Assembly (NCBI GenBank): GCA_001542995.1 | Contig: LFLA01000016.1 | Span: forward strand, 1-64,000 | DNA length: 64,000 nt | Reading direction: 5' to 3' | From: Nitrospina sp. LS_NOB | Lineage (GTDB): Bacteria; Nitrospinota; Nitrospinia; Nitrospinales; VA-1 | Shown: in pieces, positions 2,436 to 63,006 of the stretch | Numbering within the stretch: position 1 is the first letter of the stretch | Layout: each line of letters opens with the position of its first letter | The notes under the pieces: generated by a model | Databases searched by the model: none | What the model was told of the DNA's origin: nothing | Seen by the model: only the letters and a program-made list of their open reading frames with translations | Program-made: the position numbers and the translations under genes

Positions 2436-3635
2436 GTGAGCGTAACTGAACAAGGACTGCTGGAGCGCGATAAAGATACAATGACCCTGAACATGGGTCC
2501 CCAGCACCCGAGCACCCACGGGGTCTTCCGCGTCATCCTTGAAATGGATGGTGAGGTGGTAAAGACTGCCGAGCCGGAAATCGGTTATCTGCACACGGGC
2601 ATCGAAAAAAACTGCGAAAATAAAAGATACGTTCACGTCATCCCAATGACCGACCGATTGGACTACCTCAATCCGCCGGGAAACAATCTGGCCTTCTGCT
2701 TGTCGACGGAAAAACTATTGGGCATTGAGATCCCCGAACGGGCCAACGCACTAAGGGTCATCATGTGCGAGTTGTCCCGCATCGCCAGCCATCTGGTTTG
2801 GCTGGGTACGCATGCTCTGGATATTGGCGCCATGACAGTTTTCCTCTATTGCTGGCGCGAGCGCGAGATGATCCTCGATCTGAATGAAGAGGTTTCCGGC
2901 GTACGCATGATGACCAGTTATATTCGTGTTGGTGGTGTGGCGAAAGATGCGACCCGACCCTGGCTGGACGGCATCCGCGATTTCCTCGATTATTTCCCCG
3001 CCAAGGTGGATGAGTATGAAAGGTTGCTGACGAGAAACCCGATCTGGCTGGATCGAACCGAGGGTATCGGTGTGTTCACCCGGGAAGAAGCGATCAACTG
3101 GAGTTTAAGCGGGCCGGCATTGAGGGCCTCCGGAGTGAACTGGGATATTCGCAAATCCCAACCCTACAGCGGTTACGATAATTATAGTTTCGATGTCCCC
3201 ATACAGACCAACGGGGATATTTATGATCGCTACCGCGTGCGGGTTGAAGAAATGCGGCAGAGCCGGGCCATCATCAAGCAAGCTATGGAAAGACTGCCGG
3301 GCGGTGATTATAAAACGCCGGACAACAAAGTTTCTCTACCTGCCCGGGAAACCTTGCACACCAGTATGGAAGCATTGATCCATCATTTTAAGCTGGTGTC
3401 CGAGGGAATCAGCGTCCCGAAAGGCGAAACCTATGTGCCCATCGAAGGAGCAAGAGGTGAGGTGGGGTTTTATATCGTCAGTGACGGTACCAATGTTCCT
3501 TACCGGGTCAAGCTGCGGGCGCCTTCGTTCATGGCCATACCCGGCATGTGCAAAGCGATGGAAGGTTGTTATATCGCCGATGTGGTGGGCATCATTGGCA
3601 GCATCGATATTGTTATGGGTGAAGTTGACCGCTAG
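2436..3635 (+). CDS. nuoD: NADH-quinone oxidoreductase subunit D
   Basis: The 49-kDa-type subunit that forms the quinone pocket with NuoB. The 399-residue product begins at a GTG (2436) and carries MGPQHPSTHG near residues 21-30, with the quinone-binding His, and ends with the family C-terminus IVMGEVDR. The related hydrogenase large-subunit fold lacks the Ni-Fe cysteines, as expected. The TAG stop is followed directly by a two-copy dispersed repeat (3636-3886). This breaks an operon whose genes otherwise overlap or nearly touch. Confidence 0.96.
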   Translation: MSVTEQGLLERDKDTMTLNMGPQHPSTHGVFRVILEMDGEVVKTAEPEIGYLHTGIEKNCENKRYVHVIPMTDRLDYLNPPGNNLAFCLSTEKLLGIEIPERANALRVIMCELSRIASHLVWLGTHALDIGAMTVFLYCWREREMILDLNEEVSGVRMMTSYIRVGGVAKDATRPWLDGIRDFLDYFPAKVDEYERLLTRNPIWLDRTEGIGVFTREEAINWSLSGPALRASGVNWDIRKSQPYSGYDNYSFDVPIQTNGDIYDRYRVRVEEMRQSRAIIKQAMERLPGGDYKTPDNKVSLPARETLHTSMEALIHHFKLVSEGISVPKGETYVPIEGARGEVGFYIVSDGTNVPYRVKLRAPSFMAIPGMCKAMEGCYIADVVGIIGSIDIVMGEVDR

Positions 3636-3886
3636 CCACTAGGCGTGGGGCCAGCATGCGATAGCTTTATCGGGCTGGAAAAAGTTTATCTCGGCTTAAA
3701 AAATGCTTTGCTCATTGCTTCCCCTGTTAAGGGGCACTAGGCGTGGGGCCAGCATGCAATAGTTTTATTGGGCTGGCAAAAGTTTATCTCAGCTTTAAAA
3801 GGCTTTGCTCATTCAATGGCTCATTGAGCCGAGAGAATGTTTGTTCGCAGGGTAAGGATATTGCACTTGCCAGCGGAGGTTCTCCG
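3636..3886. repeat. Dispersed CACTAGGCGTGGGG repeat, tandem pair, inside nuo operon
   Basis: Two direct copies of a roughly 80-100 bp unit start at 3636 and 3735. Both begin CACTAGGCGTGGGGCCAGCATGC, continue through ATAG-TTTAT and GGGCTGG, and end with TTTATCTCGGCT or TTTATCTCAGCT and GCTTTGCTCATT. The second copy runs into a separate module, TTGCCAGCGGAGGTTCTCCG (3867-3886), that also occurs at 14185 and, with one change, at 15185. Nothing in it looks coding. It separates nuoD from nuoE by 277 bases; the nuoE ribosome binding site lies beyond it. Confidence 0.85.
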
Positions 3887-14107: not shown

Positions 14108-14358
14108 CTCACTAGGCGTGGTGCCAACGGGCAATACCCGCTGAGCCAAGAGATGGATTGTCCGTAGGATAAAGGTATTGCAAATTGCCAGCGGAGGTTC
14201 TCCGTTCACTAGGCGTGGGGGCCAGTGTGCACGTGATATTCTTCCTCAGCTTTCGTGAGCCTGTGATATCCCCACCCACAATCTCATGCCCCGCAGGGGT
14301 AGAAGGGGTAAACTGTAATAGCTTTTTATTGCTAGCAACGTTCTCTCGGCTTGACGAG
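14108..14358. repeat. Dispersed repeat cluster after nuoM
   Basis: Non-coding 300-base gap between nuoM and sfsA. A first copy begins CACTAGGCGTGGTGCCAAC at 14110 and contains GAGCCAAGAGA and the module GGATAAAGGTATTGCAAATTGCCAGC with CGGAG-GTT-CTCCG (to 14204). A second copy starts at 14207 with CACTAGGCGTGGGGGCCAG. It carries GTGATATTCTTCC and CATGCCCCGCAGGGGTA, modules shared with 28971-29050 and, inverted, with 60425-60531. It ends with AATAGCTTTTTATTGCTAGC and TTCTCTCGGCTT. I see no gene in it. Confidence 0.8.
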
Positions 14359-14413: not shown

Positions 14414-15136
14414 TTGAGATTCGGCGAGAACATTGTTGATGGTATTTTTCTGGAGCGGCCGAATCGATATTTGGCGCGTGTCGAAGTGGAGGGGAAGGAG
14501 GTTCTGGCCCATGTTCCCGATCCCGGTCGGCTGCCTGGGTTATTGCTGGCTGGCAGAAAAGTGCGGCTGGTCCACCAACCCGGACCAAAACGTAAAACGG
14601 AATACACGCTGGTTTTGGTGCGGCACGGTTCCATATGGGTGTCGACATTCCCGGTGTTTGCCAATGCCCTCATCAAAGATGCATTGATGAAACGGACGCT
14701 TCCTTTTCTCAAGGGTTATTCCGACTTTGCCAGCGAAGTGAAAGTGAAAAACAGCCGCTTCGATTTTCGGTTGACGTTTCCGCTAAACCTCGCTTATGTT
14801 GAGGTGAAATCGGTGAGTCTGGTTGAAAAAGGACTGGGCCAGTTTCCCGATGCACCGACAGAGAGAGGGGTCAAACATGTTAAGGAGTTGATAGAGCTTT
14901 GCGCAAAAGGCTGCCGAGCCGCAGTGGTGTTTGTTTCGCAACGGTCTGACACGCGGTCCATCACCAGTAATGATGACATTGACCCGGTGTTTGGGGAGTG
15001 GTTGCGAAAGGCGCGTGATAAAGGGGTGGAACTTTATGGGATGAATTGCAAGGTCACCCCGACCACGATTTCTTTGTATAAAGCCGTTGAGGTGACCACT
15101 GGGCGCCGGCGAGTCGCCGGAGGCAATGAGCAATAG
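14414..15136 (+). CDS. sfsA: SfsA family protein (sugar fermentation stimulation homolog)
   Basis: A DNA-binding or nuclease-like protein of uncertain physiological role; in E. coli, SfsA affects maltose metabolism genes. The 240 residues match the family: an N-terminal OB-like part with LARVEVEGKEVLAHVPDPGRLPGLL, then KNSRFDFRL, YVEVKSVSL and GVKHVKELIEL, which carry the restriction-endonuclease-like D-(E)VK residues. The start is TTG at 14414, with no ATG near. The last 11 residues (GRRRVAGGNEQ) lie beyond the usual family end and are encoded by a dispersed repeat copy, including its CAATAG stop. Confidence 0.85.
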   Translation: MRFGENIVDGIFLERPNRYLARVEVEGKEVLAHVPDPGRLPGLLLAGRKVRLVHQPGPKRKTEYTLVLVRHGSIWVSTFPVFANALIKDALMKRTLPFLKGYSDFASEVKVKNSRFDFRLTFPLNLAYVEVKSVSLVEKGLGQFPDAPTERGVKHVKELIELCAKGCRAAVVFVSQRSDTRSITSNDDIDPVFGEWLRKARDKGVELYGMNCKVTPTTISLYKAVEVTTGRRRVAGGNEQ

Positions 15137-22207: not shown

Positions 22208-22996
22208 ATGCAGGTTGGATCGGAAAAAATTGTCGCTGGGGTTTTGCGCGGGTTCAGAAAGGTTTTGGATTTTGTGTTTCCGCAGAACTGTATTTCCTGT
22301 GATGGCAAAATCCAGGAGTATTTCCTCTGTGCCAGCTGTAGGGATGATATCGGGTTTATTCGACAGCCGTATTGTTTTCAGTGCGGGGTGCCGGCGGACC
22401 TGTCTTATGCTTATCCGCATGAAGAGTTTGTGTGCGGGGTTTGCCGACAAAGCCCTTATCAATTTGATCAGGCCAGAAGCATGGGATTTTATGACACGGT
22501 TTTGCGGACCACCATTCACCATTTCAAATACCGCAGGCAGATGGGGGTGCTCCCGGAGATGGACCGCCTTCTGGAAAAATATTTTGAGGAGAACCCGGGT
22601 TTTTGTCAGGATTTTACCGTTTCTCCGGTGCCGTTACATTTCAATAAAATGAAGGAGAGAGGGTTTGACCAGGCCTTTCTTATTGCCCGGCAAGTTGCGA
22701 GGATTTTAAAATTACCTCTTGAAGGTGGATTGTTGCGGCGGGTCAAGGCCACCAACCCGCAAGCGACCATGACCCGTGTAGAAAGAGCTCGTAACATTAA
22801 AGGAGCCTTTGAGATCAATCGTCCCGAACTGGTCGTGGAAAAAAATATTCTACTGGTGGACGACGTGTTCACAACCGGAGCAACGGTTAATGAGGCCGCA
22901 AAGATATTAAAGAAAAATGGGGCCGGGAAGGTTTATGTGTTCACCCTGGGAAGAGTGGTGGTGGGAAAAGGGGCCACTCCGCGTGGGGCGAACTAA
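22208..22996 (+). CDS. comF: ComF family protein (phosphoribosyltransferase-like)
   Basis: The 262-residue protein has an N-terminal zinc-finger region with CISC, CASC, CFQC and CGVC pairs (about 28-82). A PRTase domain follows with SPVPLH, RGFDQAFLIAR and the PRPP loop ILLVDDVFTTGATVNEA (about 217-233). Relatives (ComFC) are needed for natural transformation and bind single-stranded DNA machinery; no other com gene is near. The final residues GATPRGAN and the stop are encoded by a dispersed repeat copy (GCCACTCCGCGTGGGGCG...), and the same tail occurs in the methyltransferase at 30286. Confidence 0.85.
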   Translation: MQVGSEKIVAGVLRGFRKVLDFVFPQNCISCDGKIQEYFLCASCRDDIGFIRQPYCFQCGVPADLSYAYPHEEFVCGVCRQSPYQFDQARSMGFYDTVLRTTIHHFKYRRQMGVLPEMDRLLEKYFEENPGFCQDFTVSPVPLHFNKMKERGFDQAFLIARQVARILKLPLEGGLLRRVKATNPQATMTRVERARNIKGAFEINRPELVVEKNILLVDDVFTTGATVNEAAKILKKNGAGKVYVFTLGRVVVGKGATPRGAN

Positions 22997-23097
22997 ATAG
23001 CTTTATCATGTGAACAAAGGGTTATCTCGGTTCAATGAAGTCGTTGCTAGTTCTCCCCTCCCTCCGGCGGCTCGCCGGGCGCCGAGTGGGCTAGTGC
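22974..23097. repeat. Dispersed repeat between comF and nhaD
   Basis: Starts with CCACTCCGCGTGGGGCGAAC inside comF, then AATAGCTTTAT, GTTATCTCGGTTCAATGAAG and GTTGCTAGTTC. It closes with CCGGGCGCCGAGTGGGCTAGTG, an inverted match to the start. It provides the comF stop, and its far end (CACTAG on the minus strand) is the nhaD stop. The whole convergent gap is repeat. Confidence 0.75.
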
Positions 23098-28349: not shown

Positions 28350-28976
28350 TTGATCGCTATCATTGACTACGGAATGGGTAATCTCCGTTCCGTGCAAAAA
28401 GGTTTCGAAGCGGTGGGTGCCGAGGCGATTGTTACCAGCGACTCCAAAAAAATCCTTTCAGCCAAATCTGTGGTGCTTCCCGGTGTCGGGGCATTCAAGG
28501 ATTGTATGGCGAATCTGGAGAAGCTGGATCTTATTGGTACTGTGCACCAGTCGGTCAAAAGCGGCAAACCTTTTTTGGGGATCTGTCTTGGGCTGCAACT
28601 TCTCTTCAACCAAAGTGAAGAATTCGGTCAGGTGGACGGGCTGGGTATCCTGCCCGGAAAAGTAGTGGGATTCAAAGATGCCAAGTCCGACTCTGGTGAG
28701 CCGCTAAAAATCCCCCATATGGGATGGAACACGGTGCGGGTGGTTCCGGGTAATCCATTGTTTGACTCGGTGGCCGATGAGTCCTACTTTTATTTTGTGC
28801 ATTCTTATTATATTGTGCCGCAGGATCCGGCGATCGTCGCCACCACCACCTGTTATGGAATCGATTTTGCCTCAGGAATCCATCACGAAAATATCCATGC
28901 GTTCCAGTTTCATCCGGAAAAAAGCCAGCGCTTGGGACTCACCATGCTGAAAAATTTTTCCAACCTTCACCACTAG
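28350..28976 (+). CDS. hisH: Imidazole glycerol phosphate synthase, glutaminase subunit
   Basis: Class I glutamine amidotransferase subunit that feeds ammonia to HisF. The 208 residues show IIDYGMGNLRSVQKGFE, VVLPGVGAFKDCM, the nucleophile GICLGLQLLF (Cys about 79) and the His-Glu pair FHPEKSQ near the end. The start is TTG at 28350, directly after the hisB stop. No hisF is in the window, so its partner is elsewhere. The TAG stop is the TAG of a dispersed repeat CACTAGGCGTGGGG. Confidence 0.95.
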   Translation: MIAIIDYGMGNLRSVQKGFEAVGAEAIVTSDSKKILSAKSVVLPGVGAFKDCMANLEKLDLIGTVHQSVKSGKPFLGICLGLQLLFNQSEEFGQVDGLGILPGKVVGFKDAKSDSGEPLKIPHMGWNTVRVVPGNPLFDSVADESYFYFVHSYYIVPQDPAIVATTTCYGIDFASGIHHENIHAFQFHPEKSQRLGLTMLKNFSNLHH

Positions 28977-29235
28977 GCGTGGGGCTGTGATATTCTCTTT
29001 CCGCAAACTTCATGCCCTGAAGGGGTACAATGAGCAATAAATTTCTTTGGCGAGTAACAGTTTTTATCGGCTGGATAAGTCCTTGCCCAGTTGCCCTTGC
29101 GGAGATTCTTCCTTCAGGAGTAGGGGGAGCTTCAATGGACCCCTCTTTTTCAAAGTACCCGTGTCGGGCACGAGGGCTTTGGAACAATATCACGAGGGGC
29201 TGGGGTGATTTACAACTTCTCACGCAATATGTAGG
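28970..29235. repeat. Dispersed mosaic repeat between hisH and the EamA gene
   Basis: Begins CCACTAGGCGTGGGGCTGTGATATTC at the hisH stop, then CATGCCCTGAAGGGGTACAATGAGCAATAAATTTCTTTGG and TTTTTATCGGCTGGATAAG. A second part has AAGTACCCGTGTCGGGCACGAGGG and AATATCACGAGG. This resembles, in inverted order, the stretch ACCCGTGCCGGGCATAAG...TTATCACAGCACGG at 60460-60510. No gene is seen in the 262-base gap. Confidence 0.75.
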
Positions 29236-29238
29236 CTA

Positions 29239-30144
29239 GTGGCTCCTACCCATTACTTTCGTGGCATTTTGTTATCCCTTGCCACCGCTCTGCTTTGGGG
29301 CGTATTACCAATTTTTTTGAAGATTGCCCTGCAGGGTTTTCATGCCGGAACGATTTCATGGTTCCGTTTCCTGTTTGCATTTTTGATCCTGATCGTCATC
29401 CTGCAATTGAAAGCGCATCAACCTCTGAATATTCTTCGCAAACCCCCGTGGATGGGAATTCTGGGAGGGGCCTGTCTTTCAGCAAATTATTATTGGGTGA
29501 CGGTGGGGGTGGATTTGAGCGGACCCTCCAATATGGCGGTTCTGATACAGACCGCTTCGGTGTTTCTGGTGCTGGCTGGAGTTTTTGTTTTTCATGAGCG
29601 CCTGGCTCTCAGGCAGGTTCTGGGAATGGTCATTGCGGGAAGTGGCTTGTTTCTGTTTTTTCATGACCAGCAAAGCCGCATTCAGGAACCGGGAGACTAT
29701 TACTACGCAGACTTTTTAATTGTTCTTGCCGGTCTGGTGTGGGTGGGATATATGGTCTCACAAAAATTTCTCAGTCGGCAATATGGGGCTCAGTCTTTAA
29801 ACCTGCTGGTCTACGCAGTTGCCACATTTACGTTGATAGGTGGAGTGGAGTGGGCCGACTTTGCTCGGGCAGGACTCACGGCCTGGTTGTCGCTGATCTT
29901 TTGCGGGTTCAACACGCTACTCGCTTATGGCACTCTTGCCGAAGCTGTGAAATATATTCCCCTGGCCCTAATCAGCGTCATCATTTCCTTGAATCCACTG
30001 ATAACCCTTTGGGGCATGAAGATTCTTCCTGAAATCGGTTTTGCCGGACTGCAAGCCGACCCGGTCGGGTCACTGGGATATTTTGGCGGTGTGGTCGCCG
30101 TCAGTGGAGTGATCCTGGTAGTCTATTGCCCCATTAGGCGCTAG
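29239..30144 (+). CDS. EamA/DMT-family membrane transporter
   Basis: The 301-residue protein has ten hydrophobic segments in two homologous halves, as in the drug/metabolite transporter superfamily: LSLATALLWGVLPIFLKIAL near the start and LIVLAGLVWVGYMVSQKFL in the middle. The substrate is unknown. The GTG start at 29239 lies in GGCTAGTGGC just after a repeat region, with no clear ribosome binding site. The last residues (CPIRR) and the TAG lie in a repeat copy that contains the palindrome AGCGTGACGCT. Confidence 0.8.
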   Translation: MAPTHYFRGILLSLATALLWGVLPIFLKIALQGFHAGTISWFRFLFAFLILIVILQLKAHQPLNILRKPPWMGILGGACLSANYYWVTVGVDLSGPSNMAVLIQTASVFLVLAGVFVFHERLALRQVLGMVIAGSGLFLFFHDQQSRIQEPGDYYYADFLIVLAGLVWVGYMVSQKFLSRQYGAQSLNLLVYAVATFTLIGGVEWADFARAGLTAWLSLIFCGFNTLLAYGTLAEAVKYIPLALISVIISLNPLITLWGMKILPEIGFAGLQADPVGSLGYFGGVVAVSGVILVVYCPIRR

Positions 30145-30310
30145 CGTGACGCTGGACCCAAAGTGTAATAATGTTATCTGGTGGATAAAGGCTTGTCTCG
30201 GTCTGAGAAAAAGTCTGCTTCTCCCATGCATATAGCAAGAGCTTATTAAGCCGCCAACACGGTTTGATTGCAGTAAATGTTATTGCTAGTTGGCTCCACG
30301 CCTAGTGGCG
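30131..30310. repeat. Dispersed repeat pair between convergent genes
   Basis: The left end reads CATTAGGCGCTAGCGTGACGCTGG, shared in part with 62877-62892 (CTAGCCAGCGTGACGCTGG). The right end, GTTGGCTCCACGCCTAGTGGC, is an inverted CACTAGGCGTGG. Between them are GCTTGTCTCGGTCTGAG and TTATTGCTAG modules. It supplies the stop of the EamA gene (TAG 30142-30144) and, on the other strand, the last seven codons and stop of the O-methyltransferase. Confidence 0.75.
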
Positions 30311-31284
30311 GTTACGACTCCGGTGGGGATGGCATCTATACGGAAATGGCGAATATCGGAAACTCCAGTTCCTTTAAGCCAGTCGATTTTTTCCTGAACA
30401 GGATGTGCTCGTCCGCCTTCGGTCAGCATGCCAATATTGAGGCTGAACAGTGTGTCACCCAGAGGGCCGGTCTGGTTTTCATTGGTGCAGAAACCGTGGA
30501 TGATGATGCGGCCACCCGGTTTCACGGCTTTCACAGCTTTGGTGACCAGGGCTCGACTCATATCCGCGTCGTACATATGCAGGATATTGGCCATGAGTAC
30601 CAGATCGTATTGGCTGTCTCCTAAATCATCTTTATGGAAATCACCCGGTTTGGTATCAACCTGATCCTGCAACCCATAGGATTCGATATAATTTTTTGCA
30701 ACTTCCAGAACCGGTGCAATATCGAAAACCGTGGCTTTAAGATGGTTGTGCAGTTTGCACCATTCCAGCGAATAGGTTCCTGGTCCGCCTCCGACATCCA
30801 GCATGGTTTTTGCGTCCCCAACAGGAATTTCGCGGGCGATCAGCCAGGTGGCTTTGAGAGCCTTGTCGTGCATGGCATCGGTAAACGCCCTCATTTTATG
30901 CGGATCACCGCCTAGCATCTCCATGATACTTTTAATAAGAATACCGGATTTTATAAAAGAGGAGAGCTGGCCCCAAACCGGATAAAGGTCGGCCGAGAGC
31001 TGAATCCATTGCTGAAGAGAATGGCTCCCGCCTGTTATGAGATATTCGTGAGCGGCTTCTGGCAGGTGGTAGGTCTGGTTTTCCTTGGTAACAATTTCCA
31101 GTGAAGTGAGGGCGTTGAGCAGGCGTTCGGTGGCTTCTGGGTCCAGGTTCAAGGTCTTTGCGACTTGTGCTGCTGTTGTCGGTTGTTTGAGCTGGTCGAA
31201 CAGTTTTAACTCATTCGCCGTCATGATAACGCATGCCGGTTGATAACCCTCCAGTATTTTACCGATCACCTTGTCCAGTTCCAT
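30286..31284 (-). CDS. O-methyltransferase-like SAM-dependent methyltransferase
   Basis: The 332-residue protein has an N-terminal winged-helix dimerisation domain (about 1-95: VAKTLNLDPEATERLLNAL) and a C-terminal methyltransferase domain with motif I TMLDVGGGPGTYSLEW (about 160-175) and the post-motif KPGGRIIIHGF. This is the architecture of the acetylserotonin/plant O-methyltransferase family. The substrate is unknown. ATG at 31284 is preferred to GTG at 31293 because AAAAGG lies eight bases before it. Its last seven residues, ATRRGAN, are encoded by a dispersed repeat and match the ComF tail. Confidence 0.78.
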   Translation of the reverse strand: MELDKVIGKILEGYQPACVIMTANELKLFDQLKQPTTAAQVAKTLNLDPEATERLLNALTSLEIVTKENQTYHLPEAAHEYLITGGSHSLQQWIQLSADLYPVWGQLSSFIKSGILIKSIMEMLGGDPHKMRAFTDAMHDKALKATWLIAREIPVGDAKTMLDVGGGPGTYSLEWCKLHNHLKATVFDIAPVLEVAKNYIESYGLQDQVDTKPGDFHKDDLGDSQYDLVLMANILHMYDADMSRALVTKAVKAVKPGGRIIIHGFCTNENQTGPLGDTLFSLNIGMLTEGGRAHPVQEKIDWLKGTGVSDIRHFRIDAIPTGVVTATRRGAN

Positions 31285-31359
31285 TCCGTACACCTTTTTA
31301 TTTAATAGGACAAGCAGGATAAAACAAATAAGCGCTGTTATTCAATTTCTTTTATTGGG

Positions 31360-52682: not shown

Positions 52683-54101
52683 ATGAAGATATCGAAAAAA
52701 GTTCATACAGGAATATTCCGGGATGGCGATGCGGGGGCTTTTGCAAAACGAAGGTTTCGTGAAAGAAGAAAAAAGTTGATGGTGAAGGAAGGCCAGCTTA
52801 TGGTCATTGCCGGTGTCCCTTATGGTCCGGGCGGAAAGACAACCTGGTCCTATGCCCATTGCCCCACTTATCAGGAGCCAGCAATGATGTATTTAACCGG
52901 TATTAACCAGAATAACGTCATCCTGTTGCTGGACCCGGGTTCAAAAGTATCGGATGAAATTTTGTTTGTGGATAACAAGGATCGAATCCTTGAGTTTTGG
53001 GAGGGGGTCCGTTTTGGGGTCGGGGATGAACAAAGCTTGAAGGAAGTGCGGTCGGTTACGGGGATCCAGGATGTTCGCGATATTCGTGAATTTAAGGATG
53101 TCCTGAAAGAGCGGTTCATGAAGCAGAAGAAAAAAACGCTGGGAACGCTCTGGCTGGAAGGCACCCGAAAGGGCAAAGTCGCCAGCATCACCACGGATCA
53201 TAATTATGATTTTAAAAAGAAACTTGAGGGGTGGTTGCGGTCCTGGAAAGCTCCAAAAGTGGCTTTAAAAAATATCATGAAGAATCATTTTGAACTGCGC
53301 CTGCCGCTGGATAAATATGATGTTGCGAATGCCCGGAAAGCTCAAGATATAACTAACGGCGGATATAAGGTGATGCTCAAAAACTTCAGGAACTTTAAAA
53401 ATGAGTGTCAGGTGCAGGGGTTTCTCGAAGGCCAGATGCTGATGAATACGCCTTTTGGCCTCAGCTATCCTTCCATCGTGGCATCAGGAGCTAACGCAAC
53501 CATTCTCCACTATACAAAGAATGATGATAATTTTTCAAAAAACGAAATGATGCTGATTGACTTTGGAGTACGCTGGATGACAATGCATGCCGATATTACT
53601 AGGACTTTTCCTGTGTCCGGGCGGTTCAACCCCATGCAGAAAATACTTTATGAAATCGTTCTTAAAGCCCAGGTTGCGGTAGAGAAAAAGGCGCGGGCTG
53701 GATTGACGATTGAAGAGTTGAACACCGTATGCTGGGATAAGGTCAATGAGGGACTCGAGTGCGACTTCAAGGCAATCGGGGGAAAGCTTAAGTTGCAATA
53801 TGAAGGAAGGCCGCACGGGGTGAGCCACTTGATGGGGGAACAGGAGCATGATGGGGATCCCTTCCGTAATTACGTCAAGCAACCCATGAAGCCGGGCTGG
53901 ATGATCAGCAATGAACCCGGGTTGTATGGGGAGTTTCGTCTGCGCCTGAATGGAAAAAACTATGATGAAAAGATAGGTATTCGCATCGAAGACAATTTAG
54001 TGATGACCGCGACCGGTTGTCTGAATCTTTCCAGCAAGATTTCCAGAACTGTAAAACAGATTGAGAAATTAATGGCCCGGCGAGCCGCCGGGGGCAGATA
54101 G
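52683..54101 (+). CDS. M24-family aminopeptidase (Xaa-Pro aminopeptidase P/II-like)
   Basis: The 472 residues have an N-terminal creatinase-like domain (HTGIFRDGDAGAFAKRRFRERRKKL, ATMMYLTGINQ-like region) and a pita-bread catalytic domain. The dimetal ligands are MLIDFGVRW (Asp), MHADITRTF (Asp), GRPHGVSHLMG (His), ISNEPGLYG (Glu) and GIRIEDNLVM (Glu). The set is complete, so an active Xaa-Pro peptidase is expected. The last residues (ARRAAGGR) lie at the edge of a dispersed repeat (CGGCGAGCCGCCGGGGGCAG). Confidence 0.87.
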   Translation: MKISKKVHTGIFRDGDAGAFAKRRFRERRKKLMVKEGQLMVIAGVPYGPGGKTTWSYAHCPTYQEPAMMYLTGINQNNVILLLDPGSKVSDEILFVDNKDRILEFWEGVRFGVGDEQSLKEVRSVTGIQDVRDIREFKDVLKERFMKQKKKTLGTLWLEGTRKGKVASITTDHNYDFKKKLEGWLRSWKAPKVALKNIMKNHFELRLPLDKYDVANARKAQDITNGGYKVMLKNFRNFKNECQVQGFLEGQMLMNTPFGLSYPSIVASGANATILHYTKNDDNFSKNEMMLIDFGVRWMTMHADITRTFPVSGRFNPMQKILYEIVLKAQVAVEKKARAGLTIEELNTVCWDKVNEGLECDFKAIGGKLKLQYEGRPHGVSHLMGEQEHDGDPFRNYVKQPMKPGWMISNEPGLYGEFRLRLNGKNYDEKIGIRIEDNLVMTATGCLNLSSKISRTVKQIEKLMARRAAGGR

Positions 54102-60296: not shown

Positions 60297-60533
60297 GCAC
60301 CGGGCAACGCCCGGTGGTAATGAGCAATAGCTGTTTATTGCCAATAAACGTTTTCTCGGCTTAAGAGGAATGGAGTAAGACCCCATCAAGCAGAGACAAC
60401 TCTTTGCTCACTCCTAAAAGTCATTTCACATTGTACCCCTGCGAGGCATGAAATACCCGTGCCGGGCATAAGTAATAATGAAAAGGTTATCACAGCACGG
60501 AAGAATACCACGGCCCCACGCCTAGTGGGATTA
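60294..60533. repeat. Dispersed mosaic repeat, composite element
   Basis: Left part: TAGGCACCGGGCAACGCCCGGTGG (a perfect CACCGGGC/GCCCGGTG inverted repeat), AATGAGCAATAGCTGTTTATTGCCAATAAACG, TTTTCTCGGCTTAAG. Right part is an inverted long-form copy: TGTACCCCTGCGAGGCATGAAATACCCGTGCCGGGCATAAG, TTATCACAGCACGGAAGAATACCACGGCCCCACGCCTAGTGGG. Two oppositely oriented repeat ends thus bracket the element. The region from 60297 to 60592 has no gene; only the promoter at 60538 follows. Confidence 0.8.
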
Positions 60534-61470: not shown

Positions 61471-62907
61471 ATGGCTTTCAAATCCATTCGGTCCAGGTTG
61501 ACGGTCTGGTACATCCTGTTACTGGCTATCATCCTCATCCTATTCAGTGTTTTTCTTAATTATTTTCTTTCCAAACGACTTTATGAAAGTGTCGACAACT
61601 CCTTGACGGTTTCGGCCACCGTTGTTGCTACCTCGGCAGTGATGAAATTCAACCGTTCACCCTTGCCCGGACTCGACCAGCTTTTCGAGCAGTTCATGGG
61701 AACCAGTAATCTCAACAAGTTTTACAGAATCTATGATGGCTCCGGCAATGTTGGGTCGCGATCTAACAATATTGATGCCTCCAAGTTCCCATTATCACAA
61801 ACTGCCTATGCCGATGCCCTTGAGGGTAAAAATTCCTACGAAACATTTCTTGTGGATGGCAAGCACCCCATTCGAGTGATCACCATGCCTATCATTCGGG
61901 AAAAAAAACTGGTCAACCTGGTTCAAGTAGGGACTTCATTGGAGGCGGTGCGGGAGACTCTGAAGAACCTGAGAATATTCTTGTTCACTGCCGTTCCCTT
62001 GGTGCTCGTTCTGGCTACACTGTTCGCGCGATTTCTGGCCCGGCGCGCTTTGAAACCTATATCCAAAATCATTCAAACCGCCCGGGATATCGGGCAGGGA
62101 CAGGAGTTGAGCCAGCGCATTCCCGTGCTAAAAGTCAAGGATGAGTTGGGCCAGCTGGCCCTGACCTTTAATGAAATGATGGATCGGCTGGAAAACTCTT
62201 TCGCCCAGATGCGGCAATTCAGCAGTGATGCTTCGCATGAGTTGAGGACTCCGTTGACGGTTTTACAGGGGCAAAATGAATTGGTGCTGAGTAAACCTCG
62301 TGAACCGAAAGAGTATCAGGAGGTGATCGCCAGTAACCTCGAAGAGATCAACTATATGTCCAAAGTGCTGGAAGACTTGTTTGTCCTCTCCAAGTCCGAC
62401 GAAAACCAGATTCTCCTCAACTGCAAGCCAATGGACTTGAGAGATCTGGTGGAGGAAGTGTGCAAACATGCCGAAGTGTTGGCCGGTGAAAAAGATATCT
62501 CTATCGTCATTGCGTTTCTGGAGCCGGTGAAAATCAACGGAGACGAGGTGCGGCTCCGGCAAATGGTTTGGAATGTTCTGCACAATGGGATTAAATACAC
62601 GCAACCGGGCGGCGAGTTGAAAGTTTCTCTGCAGGAGGAAGCAGGGTTAGCCTTATTGTCGATACAAGATACTGGCATAGGAATACCAGAAAAAGACCTG
62701 CCATCCATCTTTGACAGGTTCTACCGGGTAGATAAAGCCCGGTCACGCGATGAAGGGGGCAGTGGCTTGGGACTCAGCATCTGCAAGCATATTGTCGAAG
62801 CCCATAAAGGAAAAATCGAAGTCGAGAGCAAACTGGGTGTGGGCACCCGCTTCAAAATCCGCATCCCTGTCTCTAGCCAGCGTGACGCTGGACTCAATAA
62901 GCAGTAG
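61471..62907 (+). CDS. Sensor histidine kinase (heavy-metal-sensor-like)
   Basis: The 478 residues show TM1 (about 11-34, SRLTVWYILLLAIILILFSV), a periplasmic sensor region (35-165), TM2 (about 167-190) and HAMP (RRALKPISKIIQTARDIGQG). The H-box is SSDASHELRTPLTVL (His256), and the ATPase boxes are WNVLHNGIKYT (N), IQDTGIGIPEKDL (G1), FDRFYRVD (F) and GGSGLGLSICKHI (G2). All catalytic boxes are intact. After the usual end (FKIRIPVS) about 10 residues (SQRDAGLNKQ) are encoded by a dispersed repeat with its own CAGTAG stop. Confidence 0.93.
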   Translation: MAFKSIRSRLTVWYILLLAIILILFSVFLNYFLSKRLYESVDNSLTVSATVVATSAVMKFNRSPLPGLDQLFEQFMGTSNLNKFYRIYDGSGNVGSRSNNIDASKFPLSQTAYADALEGKNSYETFLVDGKHPIRVITMPIIREKKLVNLVQVGTSLEAVRETLKNLRIFLFTAVPLVLVLATLFARFLARRALKPISKIIQTARDIGQGQELSQRIPVLKVKDELGQLALTFNEMMDRLENSFAQMRQFSSDASHELRTPLTVLQGQNELVLSKPREPKEYQEVIASNLEEINYMSKVLEDLFVLSKSDENQILLNCKPMDLRDLVEEVCKHAEVLAGEKDISIVIAFLEPVKINGDEVRLRQMVWNVLHNGIKYTQPGGELKVSLQEEAGLALLSIQDTGIGIPEKDLPSIFDRFYRVDKARSRDEGGSGLGLSICKHIVEAHKGKIEVESKLGVGTRFKIRIPVSSQRDAGLNKQ

Positions 62908-62945: not shown

Positions 62946-63006
62946 GGTATTGCCAGTTTGGGGACGAAGGCGGAGGAAGAATATTACGCCCACTGGTTGG
63001 CTGGGC

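Follow-up and report, generated by a model that had tools for sequence, protein, structure and literature searches.

Gene ends at the repeat copies

The window, i.e., the whole stretch of 64,000 nucleotides analysed here, comes from a Nitrospina-family MAG (host genome assembly of 2.65 Mb, 98.8% complete). Several genes in it end within or next to copies of a dispersed palindromic repeat, whose terminal hairpins we call heads, the commonest being the A head:

3635..3718, plus strand: repeat copy directly after the native stop of a NuoD-type gene (PF00346) (nhmmer)
15096..15136, plus strand: repeat-derived end of SfsA (Pfam SfsA), ..TGRRRVAGGNEQ (..VAGGNEQ) and stop at 15136
22208-22996, plus strand: comF gene (Pfam DZR_2/Pribosyltran)
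22970..22996, plus strand: last codons of comF, GATPRGAN and stop, repeat DNA (sequence; orthologues)
22973..23052, plus strand: repeat copy at the comF 3' end, occupying most of the gap to nhaD (nhmmer hit)
28970..28982, plus strand: head CCACTAGGCGTGG; HisH stops at the TAG of this head (28974-28976); His-stop native (relatives)
30128..30154, plus strand: repeat-derived end of an EamA-family gene, ..CPIRR and stop at 30142-30144 (orthologues)
30227..30309, minus strand: repeat copy (head hairpin and palindromic centre) at the O-methyltransferase 3' end (nhmmer, E 2e-14)
30286-31293, minus strand: O-methyltransferase gene (Pfam Methyltransf_2/Dimerisation)
30286..30312, minus strand: last nine codons of the O-methyltransferase gene, TATRRGAN and stop (stop TAG 30288-30286; core CACTAGGCGTGG 30307-30296)
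54075..54101, plus strand: M24 peptidase end ..RRAAGGR and stop, from a CCGGCGAGCCGCCGG head (orthologues end in LMAPS, LMAVSAMLD, and others)
62877..62907, plus strand: repeat-derived end of a histidine kinase (Pfam HATPase_c/HAMP/HisKA), ..QRDAGLNKQ and stop at 62907

The last codons of the O-methyltransferase gene, ACC GCC ACT AGG CGT GGA GCC AAC TAG (30312-30286, minus strand), and those of comF, GGG GCC ACT CCG CGT GGG GCG AAC TAA (22970-22996), are translated as TATRRGAN and GATPRGAN, respectively, each followed by the stop. The initial annotation had described both tails as translated repeat plus its stop, and this description is exact at the coordinates, which lie inside repeat copies. 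It had also derived from the repeat the tails VAGGNEQ of SfsA and DAGLNKQ of the histidine kinase, in agreement with both the sequence and the orthologue ends: the former consists of a broken A head CCACTGGGCG (15096-15105), followed by a second head CCGGCGAGTCGCCGG (15106-15120) and AGGCAATGAGCAATAG, and the latter, of head CCAGCGTGACGCTGG (62877-62891) and ACTCAATAAGCAGTAG. The copy at the NuoD-type gene exemplifies another class, with the stop immediately before the head. The EamA gene (29239-30144) and the O-methyltransferase gene (30286-31293) are convergent, and both end in one block, on its opposite sides; EamA orthologues have tails RRGANEQ in genome G008 and RRGAN in G010.

HisH, a PF00361 protein (NuoM/N type), NhaD, and an SDR had been listed in the initial annotation as further recipients of the repeat stop. 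All four end with CAC TAG, the TAG lying inside the CACTAGGCGTGG core only in HisH, and relatives lacking the repeat at that point share the His-stop (NLH/LQH, ESHH/ESDHH, VTPH, FTAH). Judging by these relatives, the four ends are native and merely coincide with or abut the repeat, contrary to the original assignment.

Structure and distribution of the repeat

The unit is approximately 80-100 nt long and has an imperfectly palindromic centre between small interchangeable hairpin heads, the order being head hairpin, GCCA/GGCA with a AATGAGCAATAGC-like junction, centre (..TTTGGCTAGCAAAGAGTTNTCTCGGCTTAA..), second junction, and head. In the A head, CCAC-TAGGC-GTGG, TAG sits in the loop, and AACTAG or CAATGAGCAATAG often comes next. 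Along with it, we observed heads CAGC-GTGAC-GCTG, CCGGCGAGCCGCCGG, ACCGGGCAACGCCCGGT, GGAGGTTCTCC, and CCCCTTCGCAGGGG; the loops of several heads contain a stop codon. Among pentamer loops, TAGGC, counted together with its complement, shows the strongest enrichment for a perfect 4-bp stem (60 vs. 3.9). When heads were picked by the loop and a downstream anchor only, the stem was fully paired in 80 out of 113 cases vs. 36.5 in shuffles, and fully paired non-CCAC stems, including CCGC/GCGG, CTAC/GTAG, and CTGC/GCAG, numbered 23 vs. 1.5, the shuffles treating copies as independent and ignoring their relatedness. Conservation of the hairpins is evident from these comparisons, by which the A-head stem is maintained through compensatory changes.

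Heads may also be nested at one junction: CCACTNGGCG is directly followed by another head in 11 out of 56 cases vs. a background of approximately 1%, which suggests head-into-head replacement. One example is at 15096-15120, where CCACTNGGCG is followed by a second, different hairpin in place of TGG. A further module (GTGATATTCTTCCTCAGCTTTCGT and ATGCCCCGAAGGGGTA-like hairpins) is found in or near the same blocks, at 14227-14256, 60502-60528, and 62964-62993.

The core CACTAGGCGTGG is over-represented both in the 64-kb window (11 matches with at most two mismatches vs. 2.3 expected) and genome-wide (163 matches with at most one mismatch vs. 11 with the reversed pattern). A repeat profile, which yielded zero hits on the reversed sequence, identified 165 blocks spanning 19 kb, or approximately 130 per Mb, in a sample of 1.26 Mb (about 48% of the genome) with 1,078 genes, called by an in-house simple codon-usage caller, not curated annotation, which sets the gene 3' ends. 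Blocks are present in 30% of convergent gaps, 11% of tandem gaps, and 12% of divergent gaps. Dispersed copies have diverged (median 82% over 66 nt) and none are recent, as no dispersed pair of at least 60 nt reached 95%; in genome G000, at C24:165667-166136 (locus L119), there is a tandem array of units with 99-nt spacing, several of them almost identical.

Within the genus, the repeat is abundant in many members, with up to 293 hits (G015), and the other genera tested are near the control level almost throughout; one sister genus, g6, slightly exceeds it. Public records carrying the repeat are nearly all Nitrospina, Nitrospinaceae, or Nitrospinota MAGs. Exact 18-nt matches were also seen at loci L141 and L196, in MAGs labelled Neomarinimicrobiota and Litorilinea, and may be due to binning error, chance, or transfer. 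No Rfam match above the gathering score was found in the 64-kb window, and no account of this repeat in Nitrospina was found in open-access papers.

Protein tails and reading phases

The initial annotation had proposed to search the proteome for the shared C-termini and to compare the end of homology with the repeat boundary. Both checks gave consistent results. RGAN ends six of the 1,078 genes (0.011 expected from composition), NEQ ends five (0.12 expected), and NKQ ends two (0.115 expected), and all 13 ends lie in the repeat; internal RGAN occurs eight times in 328,632 residues. Altogether, 62 genes (5.8%) end within a block.

For the comparison with orthologues, three further RGAN-ending genes chosen from the census, encoding a hemerythrin, an AstE-like protein, and an acyltransferase, were added to ComF, the O-methyltransferase, SfsA, and the histidine kinase. 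In all seven families, homology stops short of the repeat, repeat-less orthologues terminate in other residues, and those with other modules carry other repeat-derived tails. For example, ten ComF orthologues in the genus without the repeat end in VVVGK(G/S)xxx (VVVGKGSGL, GLGL, GMEL, etc.), and the ends deviate in G000 and G003, both with repeat DNA at this place. The O-methyltransferase ends in PTGVITGVKP or similarly outside the genus, and its tails within the genus, readable in the local DNA, are ATRRGAN (G000, G003), ATRRGAS (G008), ATRHEVQ (G006), GVAAGGNEQ (G010), GRRH (G012), and others. The SfsA repeat tail occurs in none of 29 other orthologues, nearly all of which stop at about residue 228 of 240 with the native EVVL end; in G012, a repeat copy lies two bases 3' of the native stop. 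Histidine kinase tails vary with the local module (RAANEQ, SRGTNEHH, HVANEQ, PGSNGQ), and those without repeat-like ends terminate with IPRL or TLSAVG. Similarly, LLFPATRRGAN contrasts with LLFPAVEGKEE.. in the hemerythrin and LPWPTRRGAN with LPWS and stop in the AstE-like protein, and the acyltransferase has six tails in six genomes, each by the local module (ARRGAN, TRRGAN, QRDAGPDKQ, QRDAGPDRQ, QRDAGLN, GARPNEQ).

These comparisons establish the origin and the turnover of the tails at the level of sequence: the tails are repeat DNA, missing in repeat-less orthologues, and recur since the DNA recurs. This bears out the central claim of the initial annotation, that unrelated families share C-terminal tails through a DNA repeat, as the Pfam families are unrelated; identical tails in repeat-less orthologues, the observation named there as refuting it, were looked for, and these orthologues lack them.

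In the gap between comF and nhaD (22997-23090), several repeat-less relatives have a GGCGGGGC stem-loop of the GGCGGGGCAAA..TTTGCCCCGCC type, and here the gap is mostly repeat. Simple insertion was considered for ComF/NhaD and SfsA and rejected: relative to the relatives, the native gap has been replaced or rebuilt, beyond mere lengthening.

Where a gene entering the A head stops depends on the reading phase. Of all copies, 49% give a stop within two codons in the CAC TAG phase (vs. 8% in shuffles) and 44% give one within nine codons in the ACT AGG phase (vs. 29% in shuffles); the CCA CTA phase runs for a median of 21 codons before a stop. Hence the earlier claim of stops in several phases holds for two out of three phases entering the CCACTAGG end and fails for the third, open one. 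A clear phase bias is seen in the gene ends inside the element, which number 12, seven, and one, respectively, in the host genome, and 42, 11, and one in independent MAG loci from other assemblies, retrieved with the TAG-bearing head as query, a choice that favours the CAC TAG count.

Origin of the tails and known 3'-end repeats

Taking all this into account, the tails very probably result from translation of the edge of a dispersed palindromic repeat, REP/BOX-like and abundant in the genus, with the stops supplied by the repeat; the same tails are shared by unrelated proteins because the same repeat DNA recurs. Units are located almost solely between genes, gene 3' ends being a very frequent site. 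Once a unit has removed or overrun the final native codons, the reading frame runs into the head. One phase gives an immediate stop, CAC TAG, with His as the last residue; another, a stop after about eight codons, as in ACT AGG CGT GGG GCC AAC TAG (TRRGAN and stop) or ..AAT GAG CAA TAG (NEQ and stop; RGANEQ and stop); the third has no stop for about 20 codons and hardly ever forms a gene end. Other heads yield QRDAGPNEQ and AAGGNEQ. Element-borne stops likely make insertion or deletion at gene ends tolerable, so selection would keep copies there. The best supported reading is thus that a repeat tolerated at gene ends alone passively supplies codons and stops, selection likely acting as a filter on copy location.

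That the same peptide is repeated on unrelated proteins could also be expected of a selected C-terminal signal, e.g., for turnover or sorting, with the DNA similarity secondary to the protein. We consider this highly improbable and reject it, as the DNA similarity continues beyond the stop and orthologues exchange tails freely, those without the repeat lacking them; moreover, most copies encode no gene end, and a different reading phase of the repeat core yields only a His-stop. There is a modest chance that head hairpins are kept at stops because they act on the 3' end, protecting mRNA or terminating transcription or translation, the heads having replaced native 3' ends and the added codons being a side effect. 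Consistent with that are the stem covariation, the different heads adjoining the same stop in orthologues, the loss of the native ComF-NhaD stem-loop where the repeat is present, and the peak of hairpin starts of any sequence right after stops (position 0, 31 starts; position +1, 25 starts; background, 6.8). However, RNA folding of one whole copy was no better than that of shuffles, a terminator scan found no U-tract terminator at these gaps (the ComF and O-methyltransferase repeats were unmatched), and the enrichment in convergent gaps, which also fits such an element, is equally expected from a passive promoter-avoiding one.

The register between stops and heads bears on both this element and a targeted mobile unit. 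Stops preceding a head cluster at distance zero (10 out of 38 in the host genome and 21 out of 96 in the MAG loci), gaps of 11-60 nt are almost missing (two out of 96 MAG loci), and seven copies in the host genome have a stop at +23/+29. Selection by itself does not account for why stops fall so sharply at head-relative positions 0 or +7; the candidate explanations are spacer DNA trimming, targeted insertion, and selection favouring a hairpin at the 3' end. Of 31 distance-zero stops preceding the A head, 30 are TAR, with TGA accounting for 35% of stops genome-wide, and CTAR is found in 20 out of 30 (loci L142, L144, L165, L198, and others), as would be expected if CTAR or similar stop-codon sequences were the target recognised by mobile units. 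Yet CTAR is missing beside copies away from gene stops (0 out of 30 and 0 out of 64) and hence was rejected as a general insertion target; five cases with inverted A heads at both ends have unmatched flanks, i.e., no target-site duplication; and recent copies and an associated tyrosine transposase are both lacking, so such targeting seems unlikely. RAYT was rejected as a mobiliser, as the Y1_Tnp search gave no link to the repeat: Y1_Tnp occurs in four out of 16 genus genomes, was not found in the repeat-rich G003, G012, and G015 (incomplete MAGs), and has no adjoining repeat in the host genome. It is doubtful, if conceivable, that swappable hairpins in strict register with stops form, genus-wide, either a working stop and mRNA 3'-end unit replacing native ends or a product of stop-recognising spread.

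In the half of the genome that was sampled, about 6% of the genes called end within one repeat family, so repeat DNA rewrites protein C-termini across a marine lineage related to nitrite oxidisers. The orthologue panels are a clean natural experiment, where the gene is constant, the module differs, and the tail differs; annotation and phylogenetics ought to treat such tails as repeat DNA, and the exact hairpin-stop registration makes it possible to test whether REP-like repeats have a function at 3' ends.

Repeats supplying gene ends are already known in other bacteria. GTAG/CGTC REPs, whose termini often supply a TAG stop to flanking ORFs and which lie within 20 bp of 3' ends, are likewise small many-copy palindromes near gene 3' ends, enriched between convergent and co-directional genes (PMC3733652). 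The Nitrospina repeat shares with REP/BIME elements the high copy number of short palindromes, intergenic location, and position downstream of genes, but differs in that its single palindromic centre is flanked by heads of diverse sequence, it has no linked tyrosine transposase, and there is no GTAG/CGTC tag before the A head, where the four positions preceding CCACT carry at most 0.35 bit each.

QMITE1/QMITE2 of Coxiella burnetii also overlap gene 3' ends, the element giving the C-terminal residues of EnhC in strain Dugway (PMC5896051), but they are MITEs carrying direct repeats as well as terminal inverted repeats; in the Nitrospina repeat, inverted heads at both ends were seen in five cases, with unmatched flanks, and at two sites comparison with relatives indicates gaps replaced, not simply lengthened. 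As with Rickettsia palindromic elements and other in-frame MITEs, translated within unrelated host proteins (PMC2229807), Nitrospina repeat DNA is translated as part of unrelated proteins; however, Rickettsia elements also lie inside reading frames, whereas nearly all Nitrospina copies are intergenic (only three out of 165 blocks were not assigned to intergenic regions) and the gene end alone is affected. In E. coli, ribosomes can be stalled by REPs located no more than 15 nt from a stop codon (PMC12306157, citing Liang et al. 2015); these resemble the Nitrospina repeat in having a hairpin beside the stop codon, whereas in the latter the stop lies directly before the hairpin or in its loop.

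The design is closest to BOX of Streptococcus pneumoniae, which encodes a stop codon at the extreme CDS 3' end in 36 cases (PMC3049150): both are modular mosaics over-represented between convergent genes, with combinable modules encoding stops of flanking CDSs, the likeness being one of design. For BOX, orthologue alignments gave no strong evidence of altered polypeptides (PMC3049150), whereas for the Nitrospina repeat altered protein ends are clear. Because the tag and transposase of REPs are missing and the design is BOX-like, the Nitrospina repeat can be classed with the known palindromic repeats of gene 3' ends, its effects on protein C-termini being unusually clear.
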